The notes below the pieces were generated by a model. The model was given only the letters and a program-made list of their open reading frames with translations, did no database searches and was not told the origin of the DNA. From an uncultured Acidimicrobiales bacterium (lineage in GTDB: Bacteria; Actinomycetota; Acidimicrobiia; Acidimicrobiales; Poriferisodalaceae): 50,958 nt of DNA. The position numbers and the translations under genes were made by a program. Positions 3,986-18,654 of the stretch are shown here, in pieces (within the stretch, counting starts at the first letter, position 1; each line of letters starts with the position of its first letter). The stretch covers positions 1-50,958 of the forward strand of contig CAJQGN010000005.1 in assembly GCA_905477545.1 (NCBI GenBank), read 5' to 3'.

Positions 3986-4435
3986 CTAACTTTGAGCAGC
4001 TACTTCAACCAATAAAGAAAATTGAACTTCTCTGTGAAGCCGAACCTCAACCGAATGACTACCAGTAGTTTTGATAGCCGATGCTAGATTCATGCGACGG
4101 CGATCAAGCTCAACACCTGTTTGAGTTTTCACAGCCTCAGCAATTTCCATCGTAGTAACTGAGCCATACAACTGTTCACCAGAACCTACACGCGCTTCGA
4201 TCTTAATTACGGCTGACACGAGCCTGCGGGCTACTTCTTCTGCCCCTTCACGATCGCGCCCATCACGTACATCACGAGACCGCTTCATCGCCGCAGCCTG
4301 AGCTAACGCTCCATTAGTTGCGCGAAGAGCAAGGCCTTTTGGAACGAGATAATTCTGTGCATAACCATTTTGAACTTCAATAACGTCGCCAGCATTACCT
4401 AAACCAGAAACATCACTACGAAGAATTACTTTCAT
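3986..4435 (-). CDS. rplI: 50S ribosomal protein L9
   Basis: [40 protein letters not shown]. Confidence 0.97.
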
Positions 4436-4887
4436 TCTGTCGTTTCCTCCTGAGGCGTTTCCTCGGTCCCAACTTCAACAGCATCAGAAACCACATCGTC
4501 AGTACTATGCGCATTTTTATCATCATCGAAGACACTGTCATTAGCTTCTGGCTCAAACCCTCGATCTCGATCTTCTCGATCTCGACCTCGTCCGCCGCCT
4601 CGCTTATCGCCTTTTCGCTGGGTAACGACCCTCATGTGATACGGCAACAAAGCCATCTCACGAGCAATTTTTATTGCTCCTGCAGCTTGGCGTTGTTGTT
4701 GTCGGTTATTACCAGAAACCCTTGAGCCGCGTATCTTTGCGCGATCTGAAAGAAAGGCCTTAAGCAAATTAACGTCTTTATAATCTACGTATTCAATGCT
4801 GTCTTTAACAATAGGGCTTATCTTTTTCTTACGAGGCTTACGCGTATCTTTAGCCTTCGCTCGCGGTTGTTGCTTCTTACCTGCCAC
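4432..4887 (-). CDS. rpsR: 30S ribosomal protein S18 with long C-terminal extension
   Basis: S18 core [54 protein letters not shown] followed by about 68 extra residues. Confidence 0.93.
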
Positions 4888-5354
4888 TAGAAGGGCTCCT
4901 CATCGGGGATGTCGTATCCGGCTCCAAAATCAGATCCGGTATTGGGTGCATTATTAGGTCGTCCACCTGCAGATGGTCCGTTACCTTGATTTCCACCGCC
5001 ATCACGACGGTCAATTCTATTTACTTGTGCTGTAGCAAATTTTAAACTTGGTGCTACATCTTCAGCTAAAACTTGGATCTTACTGCGCCGTTCCCCATTT
5101 TGACCTTCCCAGGTCTGGTAATCAAGCCGTCCTTGCACAAGCACACGGCTCCCCTTACCCAGGGTCTCAGCTACATTTTCCGCTAATTCACGCCAACATG
5201 TGACATCAAAGAAATGAGCTTTATCTTCACCATTTTGTGATCGTTGGTTCCAGGCAACGCCAAAGTCACAAACTGCTAAACCAGTTTGAGTAAAACGGAG
5301 CTCAGGATCACGAGTCATATTTCCAACAATTGAAACTGTGTTATCAAATGCCAT
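4887..5354 (-). CDS. ssb: Single-stranded DNA-binding protein
   Basis: [38 protein letters not shown]...; acidic C-terminal tip DIPDEEPF. Confidence 0.96.
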
Positions 5355-5368
5355 AAAAACCCCTCAGA

Positions 5369-5710
5369 TCAGTCAGCGGCAACAGTTGTGTCAACGTCAC
5401 CGATTAGGCCGCGACGCTCTGCTTCATGATCAGGAAGACGAATGAGCTTATGACGGACAACATTATCAGATATCTGCAAGGCCTTTTCTACTGGATCCAT
5501 GGCCCCACCTTCAGCTAATAACTCCACTACAGAGTAATAACCTTCGGTCTTGTGGTTGATCTCATAAGCGAAACGACGTCGGCCCCAGAAATTCACGCTC
5601 GCAATAGTTGCTACTTCTTCGATACGGGTTCGAACTTCTTTGAGCTCTTCTTGAACCGCTACATCATCGAGGCCACCATCATGAATGACCATTAATTCGT
5701 ATACACGCAT
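5369..5710 (-). CDS. rpsF: 30S ribosomal protein S6
   Basis: MRVYELMVIHDGGLDDVAVQEELKEV...FWGRRRFAYEINHKTEGYYSV. Confidence 0.95.
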   Translation of the reverse strand: MRVYELMVIHDGGLDDVAVQEELKEVRTRIEEVATIASVNFWGRRRFAYEINHKTEGYYSVVELLAEGGAMDPVEKALQISDNVVRHKLIRLPDHEAERRGLIGDVDTTVAAD

Positions 5711-5887: not shown

Positions 5888-7450
5888 TTAGTCTCTGTTA
5901 AGTTCAGCAAAAATCTGGTTGAAAACTGCAGCTGCGCAGCAGCTTTCCAGATCTTTTTCTTCTCCAGAACTACGTAAAACTGTTATCACCCCTATTGAAT
6001 ATCTTTGATTGAAGCCAATCGCCCACTCTTTTGTTCCATTTGAATCGCTACTCAATACCCCAGATATTTGAGGCAGTTGTGAATCAAAACTAGGCCGCAT
6101 CAGCATTGAAGAACTAAGTTCAAAAAGTTTTTGGTGGTCTCTCACTAAAACCGGACTTGAAGAGTTCAACCAACCACTTCTGGGTGCAAAAGTTACTTTT
6201 TCCCCATCATCCCATTTCATGAGTATTTCTATACGTCTAAGTTGCCCGTCATTGGCAAAAATAGAAACCGCCTCAGTTCCCTGAACTAGCGATAAATAAT
6301 CGTCATACAAATAAAATTCCTCAGGCATCCCTGTAACGAATTCATCTAAAGCTCCTAAAATCTCAACACGAGGTAGTTCTTTCTCGAAAAGCCCCAAATG
6401 AATATCAGAAGTCGTAAACATAGATCTGACCTGACCCTGATCATCTAATACAACTAAACCAATATCAAGGTCTCCAGTTTGTTCTTCTCTCAACTTTTCT
6501 ACAGTGGATGTAACAATTTTTTGTATCTCAAGATCAATAGTCGTTTTTATTAATAGATTTGAAGTCAAACTTTTTCGTTCACCTAGCTCCTCCATAATCG
6601 AAGATTTGGCAAAATTAACTGCATGAGCTAGAGCAAAAGACGGCTCACTGAGAAGCAATGGATTAACAACTGCCTCAGTGATTGTTAGCTCTAACAAAGA
6701 CGAAGTTTGAGCCTGGAAAAATTCAGCTTCAGTAATGTGCTCTTTCGCCAGCATGTCAAAAAGTATCTTGTCAGCATAAATTTCAGCTAAACCCACATTT
6801 TTTCGATCACGTGCGACAAGAAACAGCGATGCTAAATACACTGCCTGATCAACATCTAAGTTTGAGGCACTAACTCCAAACCATGCCTGCGCTCCTGCCT
6901 CAATCCCAAATGACTCCCTGCCGAATGGAATCACATTTATATAACGCTCTAAAATTTCCTCCTTAGAGAGAGTTCGTTGGATCCGCAAGATAGACGCCGC
7001 CTCGCGTAATTTTGTCCAACCTGATAGATCATTATTTCCACTTACTAAACGAAGATACTGTTGCGATAACGTCAAATGATTAAGTTCATTAGAACCTCGT
7101 AAATCTCTCCAAAATGCTCTAACTAATTCACTAAACTCATAATTACTAGCCAAAAAATTAGGATCGGCGGCGATTACAAGCGCGTCCACAGCAACGGGAG
7201 AAATTTGTTCAAGAGTGATAGGAATATAGTTTTTTTCCGGAGTCAGTTCAGCAATTGGTATCTCGCGTCGATCCAGTATCAGACCTTGGCCATCAACGTT
7301 CATCGGTTGCGGAATTGGCAACGACCCAATAACCCGAATGGCTACGCCAGCTCCAAAAATGACTACAATTACACCTAAACAGAGAGAAATTCGCCATTTT
7401 TTTAGCGGTAACTTTTCACCTGTTGGGTTAGCTAAAGAATTTTCAGTCAT
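5888..7450 (-). CDS. Class A penicillin-binding-protein-like protein (GT51-like) with degenerate motifs
   Basis: N-terminal TM segment; KLREAASILRIQRTLSKEEILERYINVIPFGRESFGIEAGAQAWFGVSASNLDVDQAVYLASLF matches the GT51 family. Located beside a DUF5318-like gene, as ponA is in mycobacteria. Confidence 0.85.
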   Translation of the reverse strand: MTENSLANPTGEKLPLKKWRISLCLGVIVVIFGAGVAIRVIGSLPIPQPMNVDGQGLILDRREIPIAELTPEKNYIPITLEQISPVAVDALVIAADPNFLASNYEFSELVRAFWRDLRGSNELNHLTLSQQYLRLVSGNNDLSGWTKLREAASILRIQRTLSKEEILERYINVIPFGRESFGIEAGAQAWFGVSASNLDVDQAVYLASLFLVARDRKNVGLAEIYADKILFDMLAKEHITEAEFFQAQTSSLLELTITEAVVNPLLLSEPSFALAHAVNFAKSSIMEELGERKSLTSNLLIKTTIDLEIQKIVTSTVEKLREEQTGDLDIGLVVLDDQGQVRSMFTTSDIHLGLFEKELPRVEILGALDEFVTGMPEEFYLYDDYLSLVQGTEAVSIFANDGQLRRIEILMKWDDGEKVTFAPRSGWLNSSSPVLVRDHQKLFELSSSMLMRPSFDSQLPQISGVLSSDSNGTKEWAIGFNQRYSIGVITVLRSSGEEKDLESCCAAAVFNQIFAELNRD

Positions 7451-7505: not shown

Positions 7506-7895
7506 TCAATCCAGTGGATAGCGCCTTATTAAATGATTCCAGCAACAGGTGGGGCACACCTCTACTTCATAGGAAACAAAATCTCCGCTTCTTTTAGCTA
7601 ATCTTTGCAGTTCTTCATCAGAAACAACACACTTACCGCCGCCGCCGAGACGTGGGCCAAAAACATAAGCAACTATACGGAGCTTCCCATCAGCACATAA
7701 TGGACAAGTACGGCCTGAAGGCGGTGCCACACTTCGCGCTACTCGCAAAAGCTCTGGGTGAATTTCACAGGCTTCAGAACGATCAATTTCACCAGATTCT
7801 ATAGATTTTAAAAAGTGAAGTCGTTGCAATTTGTAATCAACCACACCAGAACCGGGCAGTATATTTTTATCTACTATTCCAGGATCAAATGGCAC
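7506..7895 (-). CDS. DUF5318-like actinobacterial protein
   Basis: Cys pairs CPLCADG...CPTCCWNHLIRRY; position next to the aPBP-like gene. Confidence 0.7.
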   Translation of the reverse strand: MPFDPGIVDKNILPGSGVVDYKLQRLHFLKSIESGEIDRSEACEIHPELLRVARSVAPPSGRTCPLCADGKLRIVAYVFGPRLGGGGKCVVSDEELQRLAKRSGDFVSYEVEVCPTCCWNHLIRRYPLD

Positions 7896-7917: not shown

Positions 7918-9150
7918 CTACGAAGAAGACCAATCCTCAAGGGCTTTAATTGCCTCTTGACGTGAAATCAAACCAACCTGAAAAATAAGCGCAGTTAGAT
8001 AATTGATTGCTCTACCCACTATTGGGCCATGACCAACAATTCCCATTATTTCGTTTCCATCCAAGGGAGATTGAGGGCCTCTACTACCCTCCAATTCGAT
8101 AACCTGATTGAAAACACTTAGTAGGCGTTGAGAAGGAATTTTTTTAAACGTCTTTAAAACAGCAAGCGCTTCAGGAAATTCATCTCCCCAAAAGAACAAA
8201 ACTCGTCTCACGTTAGGCTCAGTAGCCTCACCTATCGAAGAAATTTGGTGAGTAGCTTCTATAACCCTGCCTACTTTTTTAGCCAAATTACTTGAGGCCC
8301 TCATATCAACTAAAAGAACTCTTGCCTGCTCGCCAGAAGTCACAATCGGGTATAAGAGGGTCGCCCAACTCAGCGCCAAATCATGGCTACTGTCATTACC
8401 AGCTAATTCTGGAACAGGAACAAGACCGTTATAGCCTTCGATCACTAGGCCCAGTACCCCTGTTTGTTCCAAAAATAGGAGCCCCTTTCTAGGAGCTTGA
8501 ACCTTAAGTAATTTTTTTAACTCTTCGATCACACGCTCTTTTGAAACAATCGATATCCGATCTCTAAGCAGTTCTACTGCGGCTATCAGATCTATCCCAG
8601 GAACAAGCTGGTAGCCCGCCATAAATCGAGCAGCCCGCAACATTCTTAAAGGATCATCACTAAAAGATACTTCAGGATCTAAAGGCGTCCGCAAAACTTT
8701 GTGCTCTAAGTCTAATTGTCCCCCAAACGGATCTATTAACTCCCAGTCAGGAAGCTTTATTGCCATTGAATTAACCGTAAAATCACGTCTCGACAGATCA
8801 TCTTCAATAACCTTCGAAAACTGGACACTAGGTTTACGAGAATTACTTACGTAATTTTCAGATCGATGGGTTGTTATTTCAATAATCTGCGAATTTTTGC
8901 GAATACCAATCGTTCCAAATTTTGCTCCTTGATCCCAAATTGCATCTGCCCAACCAGTCACTAACTCCACGATTATTTCAGGTTCAGCACTGGTTGTAAC
9001 ATCAATATCATCATTCAATTTTCCCAATAGAAGATCTCTTACAACACCCCCAACTAAATAAAATTTATAACCAGCGCTAACAAATTTATGAGCTAAGGCG
9101 CCAACTTGAAGATCCAGTTCTAGTTTTTGAGCTTCTAAAACCTTCTTCAT
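7918..9150 (-). CDS. cca: CCA tRNA nucleotidyltransferase / poly(A) polymerase family
   Basis: YLVGGVVRDLLLGKLNDDIDVTTSAEP, RRDFTVNSMAIKL, DPFGGQLDLEHKVLRTP, DDPLRMLRAARFMAGY. Confidence 0.95.
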   Translation of the reverse strand: MKKVLEAQKLELDLQVGALAHKFVSAGYKFYLVGGVVRDLLLGKLNDDIDVTTSAEPEIIVELVTGWADAIWDQGAKFGTIGIRKNSQIIEITTHRSENYVSNSRKPSVQFSKVIEDDLSRRDFTVNSMAIKLPDWELIDPFGGQLDLEHKVLRTPLDPEVSFSDDPLRMLRAARFMAGYQLVPGIDLIAAVELLRDRISIVSKERVIEELKKLLKVQAPRKGLLFLEQTGVLGLVIEGYNGLVPVPELAGNDSSHDLALSWATLLYPIVTSGEQARVLLVDMRASSNLAKKVGRVIEATHQISSIGEATEPNVRRVLFFWGDEFPEALAVLKTFKKIPSQRLLSVFNQVIELEGSRGPQSPLDGNEIMGIVGHGPIVGRAINYLTALIFQVGLISRQEAIKALEDWSSS

Positions 9151-14461: not shown

Positions 14462-15877
14462 ATGGTTTTTTTATCCAAACGATATCGAATGGATAAAAAA
14501 ATTGAGAACGGCCCCGTTGAGTCCTGGAGTGGACTTGATTTAACTCTCAACCGCCCAGTAACTATTCGCATAACCGATACAGAAACTGAGATTGGTCAGC
14601 GGTTAAGAATGCAGGCGCAGGCTCTCTCACGACTTGAACATCCTTCTCTTCTCCATATTTATGACTCAATTTCAACCTCTAATCAGTTTGCAATAATTAC
14701 CGAGATTTTACCTTCACGTAATCTTTCGCAAGATCTGCAAGAACGAGGGCGTTTCTCCGCTTATGAGGCGGTGCAGCTTGTGATCCAAGTCAGTGAAGGC
14801 CTAGCTTCGCTTCACCAAGCGGGATTTGCTCACGGAGGCGTCGAAGCTCATCACATAGCGTTAAGAGAAGACAAAACTCCCGTAATAATTGTTGGCCCAC
14901 CTACGGGAGACGCAGTTAAAATACCGGCGCGCCCATCAAACGACATATCTTCTCTAGGTAAATTATGTCATCTTCTGATCGTCGGAACTACTCCAACAAT
15001 TGATGTGCACGGCCGCACAGCCATACATCCAACAGTACCTTCATCGCTTCAACCAATACTAAAAAAGGCCCTCTCAGATCAACCACCCTGGGGCAACAGT
15101 TCTGCATTGATTTTGGCTTTTCAATCTGTTCTTCATGACCTGAAAGAATTAGAATTTCAGGCAGATATTGGTAAAACATCTTATTTAGAAAGCGAAAAAA
15201 CTTGGTTCGCACCGATTTTCGCCATTGTGTCTGCGGCTGTTCTTATTATCGGTATCGGGCTGCTCCTAGCCAAAACTGACTTAGCCCCGTCACTAGTTGA
15301 CAATGTTAAACAGGTAGTCAGTGGTAGCAAGTCCTCAGATCAACAGGCAAATAACACTTTCTTTCCACCATTAGAGGACTTATCTCGTAATGAGCCATTA
15401 CCTAAAAGTGCTCGCTTACCCATCATTGACATAATAGATTTTGACCCTGAAGGTGACGACCGACTTGAACATCCTGACAAAATAAAACGAATTAATGACG
15501 GTGATGCAAGTCGAGGATGGAATACGTCTCGATACAACTCACGCAAGTTTGGGGGTTTGAAAAGTGGAGTTGGATTAATAATTAAGCTTAGCAATAACCA
15601 CCATATAGATTTAATTGAAGTTGGTGCCACGGCAATTAACTGGGGCTTCGAATTATACGCCATTAATGAATCTCCAGGCTCACTAATCGAATGGAGTTGG
15701 GGTTCGCCAATTACTTCGTTAGCGGAATTAAAAGGTATAACTAAAGTTAATTTCACTGATCTAACTGGTTCTACGCTTTTACTTTGGATAACCGACTTAG
15801 GAAATTCGCTTCCTGTTGGAGGCCATCGAGTCTCGATAAATGAAGTATCTGTTTATGGAAGACCAGTGAGCAATTAG
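14462..15877 (+). CDS. Pseudokinase with TM segment and extracytoplasmic C-terminal domain (MviN C-terminal-half-like)
   Basis: Kinase-like fold segments LEHPSLLHIYDS...YEAVQLVIQVSEGLASLHQAGFAHGGVEAHHIAL without HRD/DFG; TM IFAIVSAAVLIIGIGLLLA; C-terminal discoidin-like region. Confidence 0.8.
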   Translation: MVFLSKRYRMDKKIENGPVESWSGLDLTLNRPVTIRITDTETEIGQRLRMQAQALSRLEHPSLLHIYDSISTSNQFAIITEILPSRNLSQDLQERGRFSAYEAVQLVIQVSEGLASLHQAGFAHGGVEAHHIALREDKTPVIIVGPPTGDAVKIPARPSNDISSLGKLCHLLIVGTTPTIDVHGRTAIHPTVPSSLQPILKKALSDQPPWGNSSALILAFQSVLHDLKELEFQADIGKTSYLESEKTWFAPIFAIVSAAVLIIGIGLLLAKTDLAPSLVDNVKQVVSGSKSSDQQANNTFFPPLEDLSRNEPLPKSARLPIIDIIDFDPEGDDRLEHPDKIKRINDGDASRGWNTSRYNSRKFGGLKSGVGLIIKLSNNHHIDLIEVGATAINWGFELYAINESPGSLIEWSWGSPITSLAELKGITKVNFTDLTGSTLLLWITDLGNSLPVGGHRVSINEVSVYGRPVSN

Positions 15878-17680: not shown

Positions 17681-18654
17681 ATTCTCTCCCATCAGTAAGT
17701 CCTTTTGGTGTCGGTGCATTCGGAAACCACGTACGAGACTTACAAAACCGTCTCCAAAAACTGAATTATGATCCTGGTCAAATCGACGGAAGTTTTGGCA
17801 ACAAAACTGAGTCTTCTCTTCGCTCGTTCCAAAAACGCCGAGGAATAGACACAGATGGTATCTGTGGTCCAGAATCATGGTCCGAAATCGTTGAGGCTGG
17901 TTACTACTTGGGCAGTCGTTTGCTCTACCTACATGAACCCCCGCTACGAGGTGACGATGTCGCTGAAATGCAACAGTTACTAAGCACTCTCGGGTTTAAA
18001 AGTGGACATGTCAATGGAATACATACATCGAAAACTGCTGATGCAATAACTGATTTTCAACTTAACGCAGGGTTAACTGCAGACGGCATCTGCGGCACTC
18101 TTACTCTAGAAAGCCTAAGACGATACGGTAGTAACGTAAAACTTGGTGAGCTTGCATCTCTTCAGGAACGAAATCAATTTAACTCACTCGGCACTCAACT
18201 AAATGGCAAGAAAATTGTTTTAAGCGAAACTGGAGGTCTTGACGCCACGATCGCCTCCTTAAGAAGATCTCTTGGAGAGTTAGGCGCGAACGTTCTAACT
18301 ATTCACCACCCAGATGCCTCCGCTCAAGCAACTCAAGCAAATACATACCGAGCAGACCTCTTCATAGCCTTAGAAGTAAGACACGACCGCCCATCAATTT
18401 GTCATTTCCAGGGTGAACATTATTTAAGTCCTGTCGGCTCACTCTTAGCTGAAAAGCTCGTGAATGAACTCAGCCAATACTTTCCCAACTTAGAAAACAA
18501 AGGAATGGCTCTCCGAATTTTACGGGAAACTCAAATGCCCACAGTTCTATGTCGCTTTAACTCAGCCAATACCCTTGTTCGAAGTAATCAGTTAATTGCT
18601 TCATCAATTTGTACTGCGATTAACAACGCCCTCGGGACAGGCTTTACAAGTTAA
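17671..18654 (+). CDS. cwlM: CwlM-like protein: two peptidoglycan-binding domains plus degenerate amidase_3 domain; start codon unclear
   Basis: In-frame translation from 17671 reads IPIDSLPSVSPFGVGAFGNHVRDLQNRLQKLNYDPGQIDGSFGNKTESSLRSFQKRRGIDTDGICGPESW..., a complete PG-binding domain, then a second (LRGDDVAEMQQLLSTLGF...DGICGTLTLESL). The ORF track begins only at TTG 17908. Located between trxA and parB as in mycobacteria. Confidence 0.8.
   Translation: MPIDSLPSVSPFGVGAFGNHVRDLQNRLQKLNYDPGQIDGSFGNKTESSLRSFQKRRGIDTDGICGPESWSEIVEAGYYLGSRLLYLHEPPLRGDDVAEMQQLLSTLGFKSGHVNGIHTSKTADAITDFQLNAGLTADGICGTLTLESLRRYGSNVKLGELASLQERNQFNSLGTQLNGKKIVLSETGGLDATIASLRRSLGELGANVLTIHHPDASAQATQANTYRADLFIALEVRHDRPSICHFQGEHYLSPVGSLLAEKLVNELSQYFPNLENKGMALRILRETQMPTVLCRFNSANTLVRSNQLIASSICTAINNALGTGFTS

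Follow-up and report, generated by a model that had tools for sequence, protein, structure and literature searches.

The class A penicillin-binding proteins (aPBPs) have been studied as enzymes and as drug targets, and any non-catalytic functions that they have are hard to separate from their chemistry, because mutants are needed for it. The systems closest to the protein described here fall into two groups. The first comprises enzymes with a GT51 glycosyltransferase (GT) domain: the PonA1-type aPBPs, encoded between a DUF5318 gene and rpsF and bearing a transpeptidase (TP) domain, and the monofunctional GT51 enzymes (MtgA/MGT), in which a GT51 domain sits on a membrane anchor. The second comprises proteins whose role does not depend on their own catalysis. 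Clostridioides difficile PBP3 has a role in a synthase complex that is independent of its own catalysis (PMC12539705), and CwlM is a homologue of a wall enzyme, with an enzymatic function that is non-essential, and which regulates peptidoglycan (PG) synthesis (PMC4946905). The first of these is, however, a class B PBP whose catalysis is dispensable for its role, whereas in the form described here the catalytic residues have been lost by evolution, and across an entire clade. CwlM, for its part, is a cytoplasmic protein that acts on MurA, whereas the protein described here belongs to the aPBPs and carries a membrane helix.

The gene lies in a stretch of 50,958 nucleotides (the window) from an uncultured Acidimicrobiales bacterium, namely contig 5 in an assembly that totals 2.58 Mb in 300 contigs and is 93% complete. 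It occupies 5888..7450 on the minus strand, as do all features of the locus given below, starts with ATG, encodes 520 aa, and has orthologues in 30 genomes. Upstream are a DUF5318 gene (7506..7895; PF17249, 96.8 bits), which is diagnostic of the locus, and a co-directional cca-type tRNA nucleotidyltransferase gene (7918..9150, named by sequence recognition). Downstream are rpsF (5369..5710, named by sequence recognition and position), and then ssb (4887-5354), rpsR (4432-4887) and rplI (3986-4435), which together span 3986..5354 and were named by sequence recognition and order. The resulting arrangement, cca – DUF5318 – aPBP – rpsF – ssb – rpsR – rplI with all genes in the same direction, is that of ponA1 in actinobacteria such as Mycobacterium tuberculosis. 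This identity of the locus goes beyond the preliminary description of the DNA, as do the clade-wide dead form with its one origin and the other intact aPBP of the genome, described below.

The protein has three recognizable parts. The first is an N-terminal helix (residues 14–42; 7325..7411) that is hydrophobic and is read as a membrane anchor, with type II topology expected. The second is the GT51 domain (residues 66–210; 6821..7255), which matches Transgly PF00912 with an E value of 2.3e-27 and 96 bits against a cut-off of 27 bits; by this domain, and with aPBPs as the top Foldseek matches, the protein belongs by descent to the class A PBP family. The third is a TP remnant (residues 326–520; 5891..6475) consisting of the edge strands of the TP sheet and a C-terminal helix. 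The C-terminal PF00905 domain of class A PBPs gives no match at E<=1 in the 520-aa protein, nor does the protein match it in the search of its own genome; the remnant strands nonetheless align with those of intact enzymes and are modelled. NCBIfam models for PBP1A, PBP1C and MGT are listed for the protein, every one with a score far under its cut-off.

Alignment with 28 intact homologues (alignment A1) shows that the GT51 active site is only partly present. Where the catalytic glutamate of motif I is expected (E. coli PBP1b E233; S. aureus MGT E100) there is Ala95 (7166..7168), in a column that is Glu in 28/28 intact homologues and in all six intact members of the family. The VIAADPNF reading given in the preliminary description is borne out; Asp96 is retained next to the Ala and the motif I His is absent. 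In motif II the canonical GGSTITQQ is replaced by NHLTLSQQ (residues 124–131; 7058..7081), within the NHLTLSQQYL noted previously, in which the GGS is gone and Thr127 and Gln130/131 are kept. Motif III retains Lys147 and Glu150, the second GT51 glutamate (7001..7003; E. coli E290 equivalent), and motif IV is also retained. The earlier reading of both domains as apparently dead is supported, with the refinement that the persistence of motif III Glu150 and motif IV leaves some GT motifs in place. In the GT reaction the general base is the Glu of motif I (PMC8119973), and the GT module of E. coli PBP1b is inactivated by the E233M change (PMC5089857); because this residue is lost, and in view of this mutagenesis of homologues, the GT51 domain of the window protein is expected to be inactive, and we infer that it would lack activity in the test tube.

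In the TP region both SxxK and SxN fall in gaps (A1 columns 696/699 and 767/769), in agreement with the short TP region lacking both motifs that had been described, and at the KTGT position, also flagged as altered, the sequence reads V465-L-S-S468 (6047..6058). A region at residues ~350–374 (6329..6403) takes the place of a 93-residue block (residues 397–489 of the intact sister enzyme L162) that carries SxxK and SxN. Judged from the sequence, the TP nucleophile is gone. Two candidate replacements were discarded: L354 and K357 are placed at the SxxK columns by MAFFT in genus g1, but without a Ser, and an STVK string in the related protein L142 is spurious, being located ahead of the TP sheet. 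Nowhere else in the protein do the alignments reveal an intact catalytic Glu or Ser/Lys pair, the finding that would have told against the earlier reading. The protein is an aPBP by descent and, by motif criteria, not an active GT51 enzyme or PBP, and the GT51 match alone would label such genes penicillin-binding proteins, which is a caution for annotation.

Structure prediction, as suggested in the preliminary description, returns an aPBP fold. The AF2 model is moderate (pLDDT 71, pTM 0.55) because the deep family alignment of dead forms was left out, the input being 30 sequences from the window protein and related loci. It contains the helix at 14–42, the GT51 helices, sheet strands at 300–346 and 463–492 (those within the TP remnant being 328–336, 340–346, 463–468, 474–480 and 484–492), and a C-terminal helix at 505–519. 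The best Foldseek matches are S. aureus PBP2, E. coli PBP1b and A. baumannii PBP1a, with E values down to 2.8e-22, and isolated GT51 domains of A. aeolicus match with target-normalised TM scores of 0.79–0.83, the GT51 domains 2oqo/3d3h with 0.81–0.83. The protein resembles the PonA1-type aPBPs in locus, N-terminal helix, GT51 fold, TP sheet edges and, as shown below, in grouping with the intact enzymes of the family in trees, but differs from them in lacking the catalytic Glu, SxxK, SxN and KTGT, in the excision of a TP core of ~93 residues, and in the absence of the C-terminal tail. It resembles MtgA/MGT in having a GT51 domain on a membrane anchor, but it has lost the GT51 base and carries a TP remnant in addition.

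The window's GTDB family was searched in full (39 genomes in 10 genera, g1–g10), and an aPBP gene was found at the ponA1 locus in 36 of the genomes. There are two forms. Every genome with an assembled locus in six genera (g1 and g6–g10; 30/30) has a degenerate gene, and six genomes of the four sister genera (g2–g5) have an intact enzyme of 640–776 aa. The motifs are covered by 28 of the 30 degenerate genes, one of these rows being cut by a contig end at KTGT. In these, A, V or L takes the place of the motif I Glu (28/28, versus E in 6/6 of g2–g5), SxxK and SxN are deleted or lack the Ser (28/28), every row that extends over KTGT has lost it, and none has an intact set of DD-transpeptidase motifs (0/28). 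The span excised relative to L162 has near-identical boundaries in g6, g8, g9 and g10, and aligns in g1 and g7 as two or three nearby gaps. The remaining three genomes (G007, G010 and G022), which belong to the six genera with the degenerate form, gave no match to the aPBP gene, rpsF or DUF5318, with queries that match elsewhere though with no positive control of their own in these genomes; since rpsF and DUF5318 are also without a match, the locus is probably absent from these assemblies. DUF5318 and rpsF flank the gene at all assembled loci, and the neighbors are the same across genera, except that in g7 (loci L166–L175) cca and DUF5318 run in the opposite direction to the dead aPBP and rpsF. 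Since this differs from the other genera, an inversion has taken place in g7, one that left the pair side by side. The dead-aPBP ORFs of this genus (e.g. L173 in G023 and L172 in G020) span 539–1002 aa, apparently through an N-terminal extension of the frame, and their true starts are uncertain.

Two trees support a single loss of both catalytic sites, in an ancestor of the six genera. First, in a tree of six flanking proteins all 28 sampled carriers of the dead form are separated from the rest by a single branch (100/99). Second, in the tree of the protein itself the dead forms are one group (100/99) that joins the family's intact ponA1-locus enzymes (100/99), as expected of orthologues at this locus, with the second aPBP standing apart (100/100). 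Horizontal gain of a divergent aPBP is excluded by the conserved synteny together with the protein tree, and decay private to one genome is excluded by the 30 genomes of six genera. Chance or misassembly is likewise excluded, since the orthologue in the only other genome of the window's genus, which is 77% identical with no internal indel, shows the same losses.

The preliminary description had regarded the well-preserved GT51 helices as arguing against random decay and had suggested a dN/dS comparison. Between the two species of the window's genus (Nei-Gojobori, bootstrap intervals) dN/dS is well under 1, with 0.32 for the whole protein (95% interval 0.25–0.43), 0.15 for GT51 over residues 56–215 (0.07–0.27), 0.36 for the TP remnant (0.24–0.56) and 0.52 for the linker (0.29–0.93); no bootstrap for the whole protein, GT51 or the TP remnant reaches 1. 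For comparison, the value is 0.07 for the intact paralogue, 0.17 for cca and 0.02 for rpsF. Medians are 0.16–0.19 in g6, g8 and g9 and 0.29 in g7, values that are rough, since dS exceeds 1 in several sets. In the protein tree the dead form has long branches, evolving several-fold faster than the intact paralogue, and the constraint is thus partly relaxed; the dead protein is constrained, but less so than an active aPBP.

These rates bear on whether the gene is a decaying pseudogene without function, in which long ORFs persist through chance or slow decay. Its faster evolution than both the intact paralogue and the flanking genes, its eroded motifs and its partly deleted C-terminal domain are what such a gene would show. 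However, it is retained at one locus in 30 of 30 genomes of six genera, the family search found no stop codon within the matched stretches, and its length stays at ~506–540 aa in five genera down to ~28% identity. Moreover, dN/dS is significantly below 1, most strongly in GT51, and two species at 77% identity differ by no internal indel. We therefore regard the pseudogene explanation as very unlikely, and the earlier argument against random decay holds. The combination of lost catalytic residues with long-term purifying selection is that expected of a functional pseudoenzyme.

The columns conserved across the dead clade are mostly structural. They are D60-R61, P85, D89-A90, D96, L167-E168, G177-R178, G182, W190-G192, Q202-A203 and A207, and, further downstream, D306, Q310, L335-D336, G402, G464, W476 and G479. 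Within the GT51 pocket Asp96 is retained in 28/28 degenerate proteins, and Glu150 in 18/18 of g1, g6, g8, g9 and g10; in these 18 genomes Q130 and R134, the latter a conservative Lys-to-Arg change, are retained as well. GGS and the motif I His are lost everywhere in the dead form, and only g1 keeps Lys147. Erosion of the pocket has gone further in g7, where the equivalents of Gln131 and Glu150 are lost, which argues against one common ligand-binding role. In S. aureus MGT, Asp101 and Gln136 line the pocket that holds moenomycin, mutation of either abolishes polymerisation, and Lys140 makes a salt bridge to a phosphate (PMC6053601). These residues align with D96, Q130 and R134 of the window protein, and for this reason some ligand binding may survive in the dead form.

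Two alternatives to a non-catalytic subunit turn on these residues. One is that the protein is still a glycosyltransferase, with Asp96, Glu150 or a shifted residue replacing the base and only the TP domain dead. The persistence of Asp96 and, outside g7, of Glu150 would fit this, as would Thr127, Gln130/131 and Lys147 in g1 and the GT51 domain being the most constrained part of the protein; but the missing residue is the general base itself (PMC8119973), whose substitution inactivates PBP1b as a GT (PMC5089857), and other parts of the pocket have not been spared, GGS and His being gone throughout, Lys147 outside g1, and Glu150 in g7. A monofunctional GT of this sort we consider unlikely. The other is a substrate decoy or brake that binds lipid II without turnover, buffering the precursor or competing with the active synthases. 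A pocket without its base but with D96, Q130, R134 and E150 in 18 genomes, several of whose MGT equivalents contact moenomycin (PMC6053601), is compatible with such a role, and yet it is eroded in g7, it lacks GGS and His in all genomes, and a decoy leaves the retention of the TP sheet unexplained; we are doubtful of this explanation to much the same degree.

We consider it probable that the gene is a direct descendant of a ponA1-locus aPBP in which both sites were lost once, in the six-genus ancestor, and that it has been kept since then as a pseudoenzyme acting as scaffold or regulator. The sequences themselves establish the loss of both sites, the single origin, the one locus, the open frames, the purifying selection and the coexistence with an intact aPBP, and the clade-wide retention of a dead PonA1 suggests a regulator or scaffold of wall synthesis and not an enzyme. 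Besides the dead gene, the genome carries a single GT51 gene (C187), an intact aPBP in which all 13 catalytic sites are present, together with three SEDS genes and three PF00905 proteins besides C187. Likewise, dead-clade genomes have, where detected, one full-scoring GT51 gene each beside the dead one, with intact motifs in those that were read; g2–g5 genomes have two or three GT51 genes. The N-terminal helix would anchor the protein in the membrane, with the GT51 head and the TP-sheet remnant outside, where it could serve the remaining wall synthases as a scaffold or regulatory subunit, free of chemistry. For wall proteins that work without catalysis, C. difficile PBP3 (PMC12539705) and CwlM (PMC4946905) are precedents. 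Its partner would be either the one intact aPBP of the genome or a pair of SEDS and bPBP, and a possible means is the holding of lipid II or nascent glycan, given that five of the six genera keep Asp96, Gln130, Arg134 and Glu150 and never the base. More tentatively, we propose that this clade-specific pseudo-aPBP, both of its activities having been lost in one ancestor, is now a conserved non-catalytic subunit of the machinery for wall synthesis that binds lipid II or nascent glycan and controls the sole remaining aPBP or a SEDS synthase; this fuller version is possible, and we hold it with less confidence than the descent and retention themselves.

If this is true, it would be, to our knowledge, the first naturally dead bifunctional PBP retained by a whole lineage. 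A clade-wide dead class A PBP was not found in the openly accessible literature, a search that largely leaves subscription papers outside and is thus weak evidence of novelty. Evolution has here made the separation for which mutants are otherwise needed, removing both active sites and retaining the rest across six genera, and the conserved surfaces therefore point to a non-enzymatic job of aPBPs. The intact enzymes of g2–g5 and the dead ones of g1 and g6–g10 form a natural series for roles of PonA1 besides chemistry.

Outside the family, one genome was taken from each of the order's other 57 families. An aPBP gene lies upstream of rpsF in 21 of these, all intact and none degenerate, with all 13 catalytic positions intact (one position being read as X). 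The remaining families have no aPBP in the stretch taken, in some because the contig ends. A more eroded aPBP copy in the families lacking one was sought with both intact and dead profiles, which found no aPBP-like ORF at the site; of the loci, three were read over their full length (L192, L200 and L203), and there the place is taken by a panB-like gene or by other genes. It seems that the aPBP of the locus has been dropped or relocated in whole families of the order. In these three and similar loci the panB-like gene (ketopantoate hydroxymethyltransferase by sequence recognition) is near DUF5318.

Two other genes in the window deserve mention. The first (17908-18654, plus strand), at 17.9 kb between a thioredoxin-reductase-like gene and parB, encodes a CwlM-like protein with one PG_binding_1 domain (57.5 bits). 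It has no amidase match at E<=0.01, the stretch where the His motif would be reads IVLSETGGL, and it may be another wall pseudoenzyme of this window. The second (14462-15877, plus strand), downstream of a MurJ/MviN-like gene, encodes a kinase-like membrane protein with a partial Pkinase match (39 bits, residues 42–125). It has neither HRD nor DFG, reading AHGGVEAHHI and VGPPTGD instead, and is probably a pseudokinase, resembling the one that is fused to MviN in mycobacteria.
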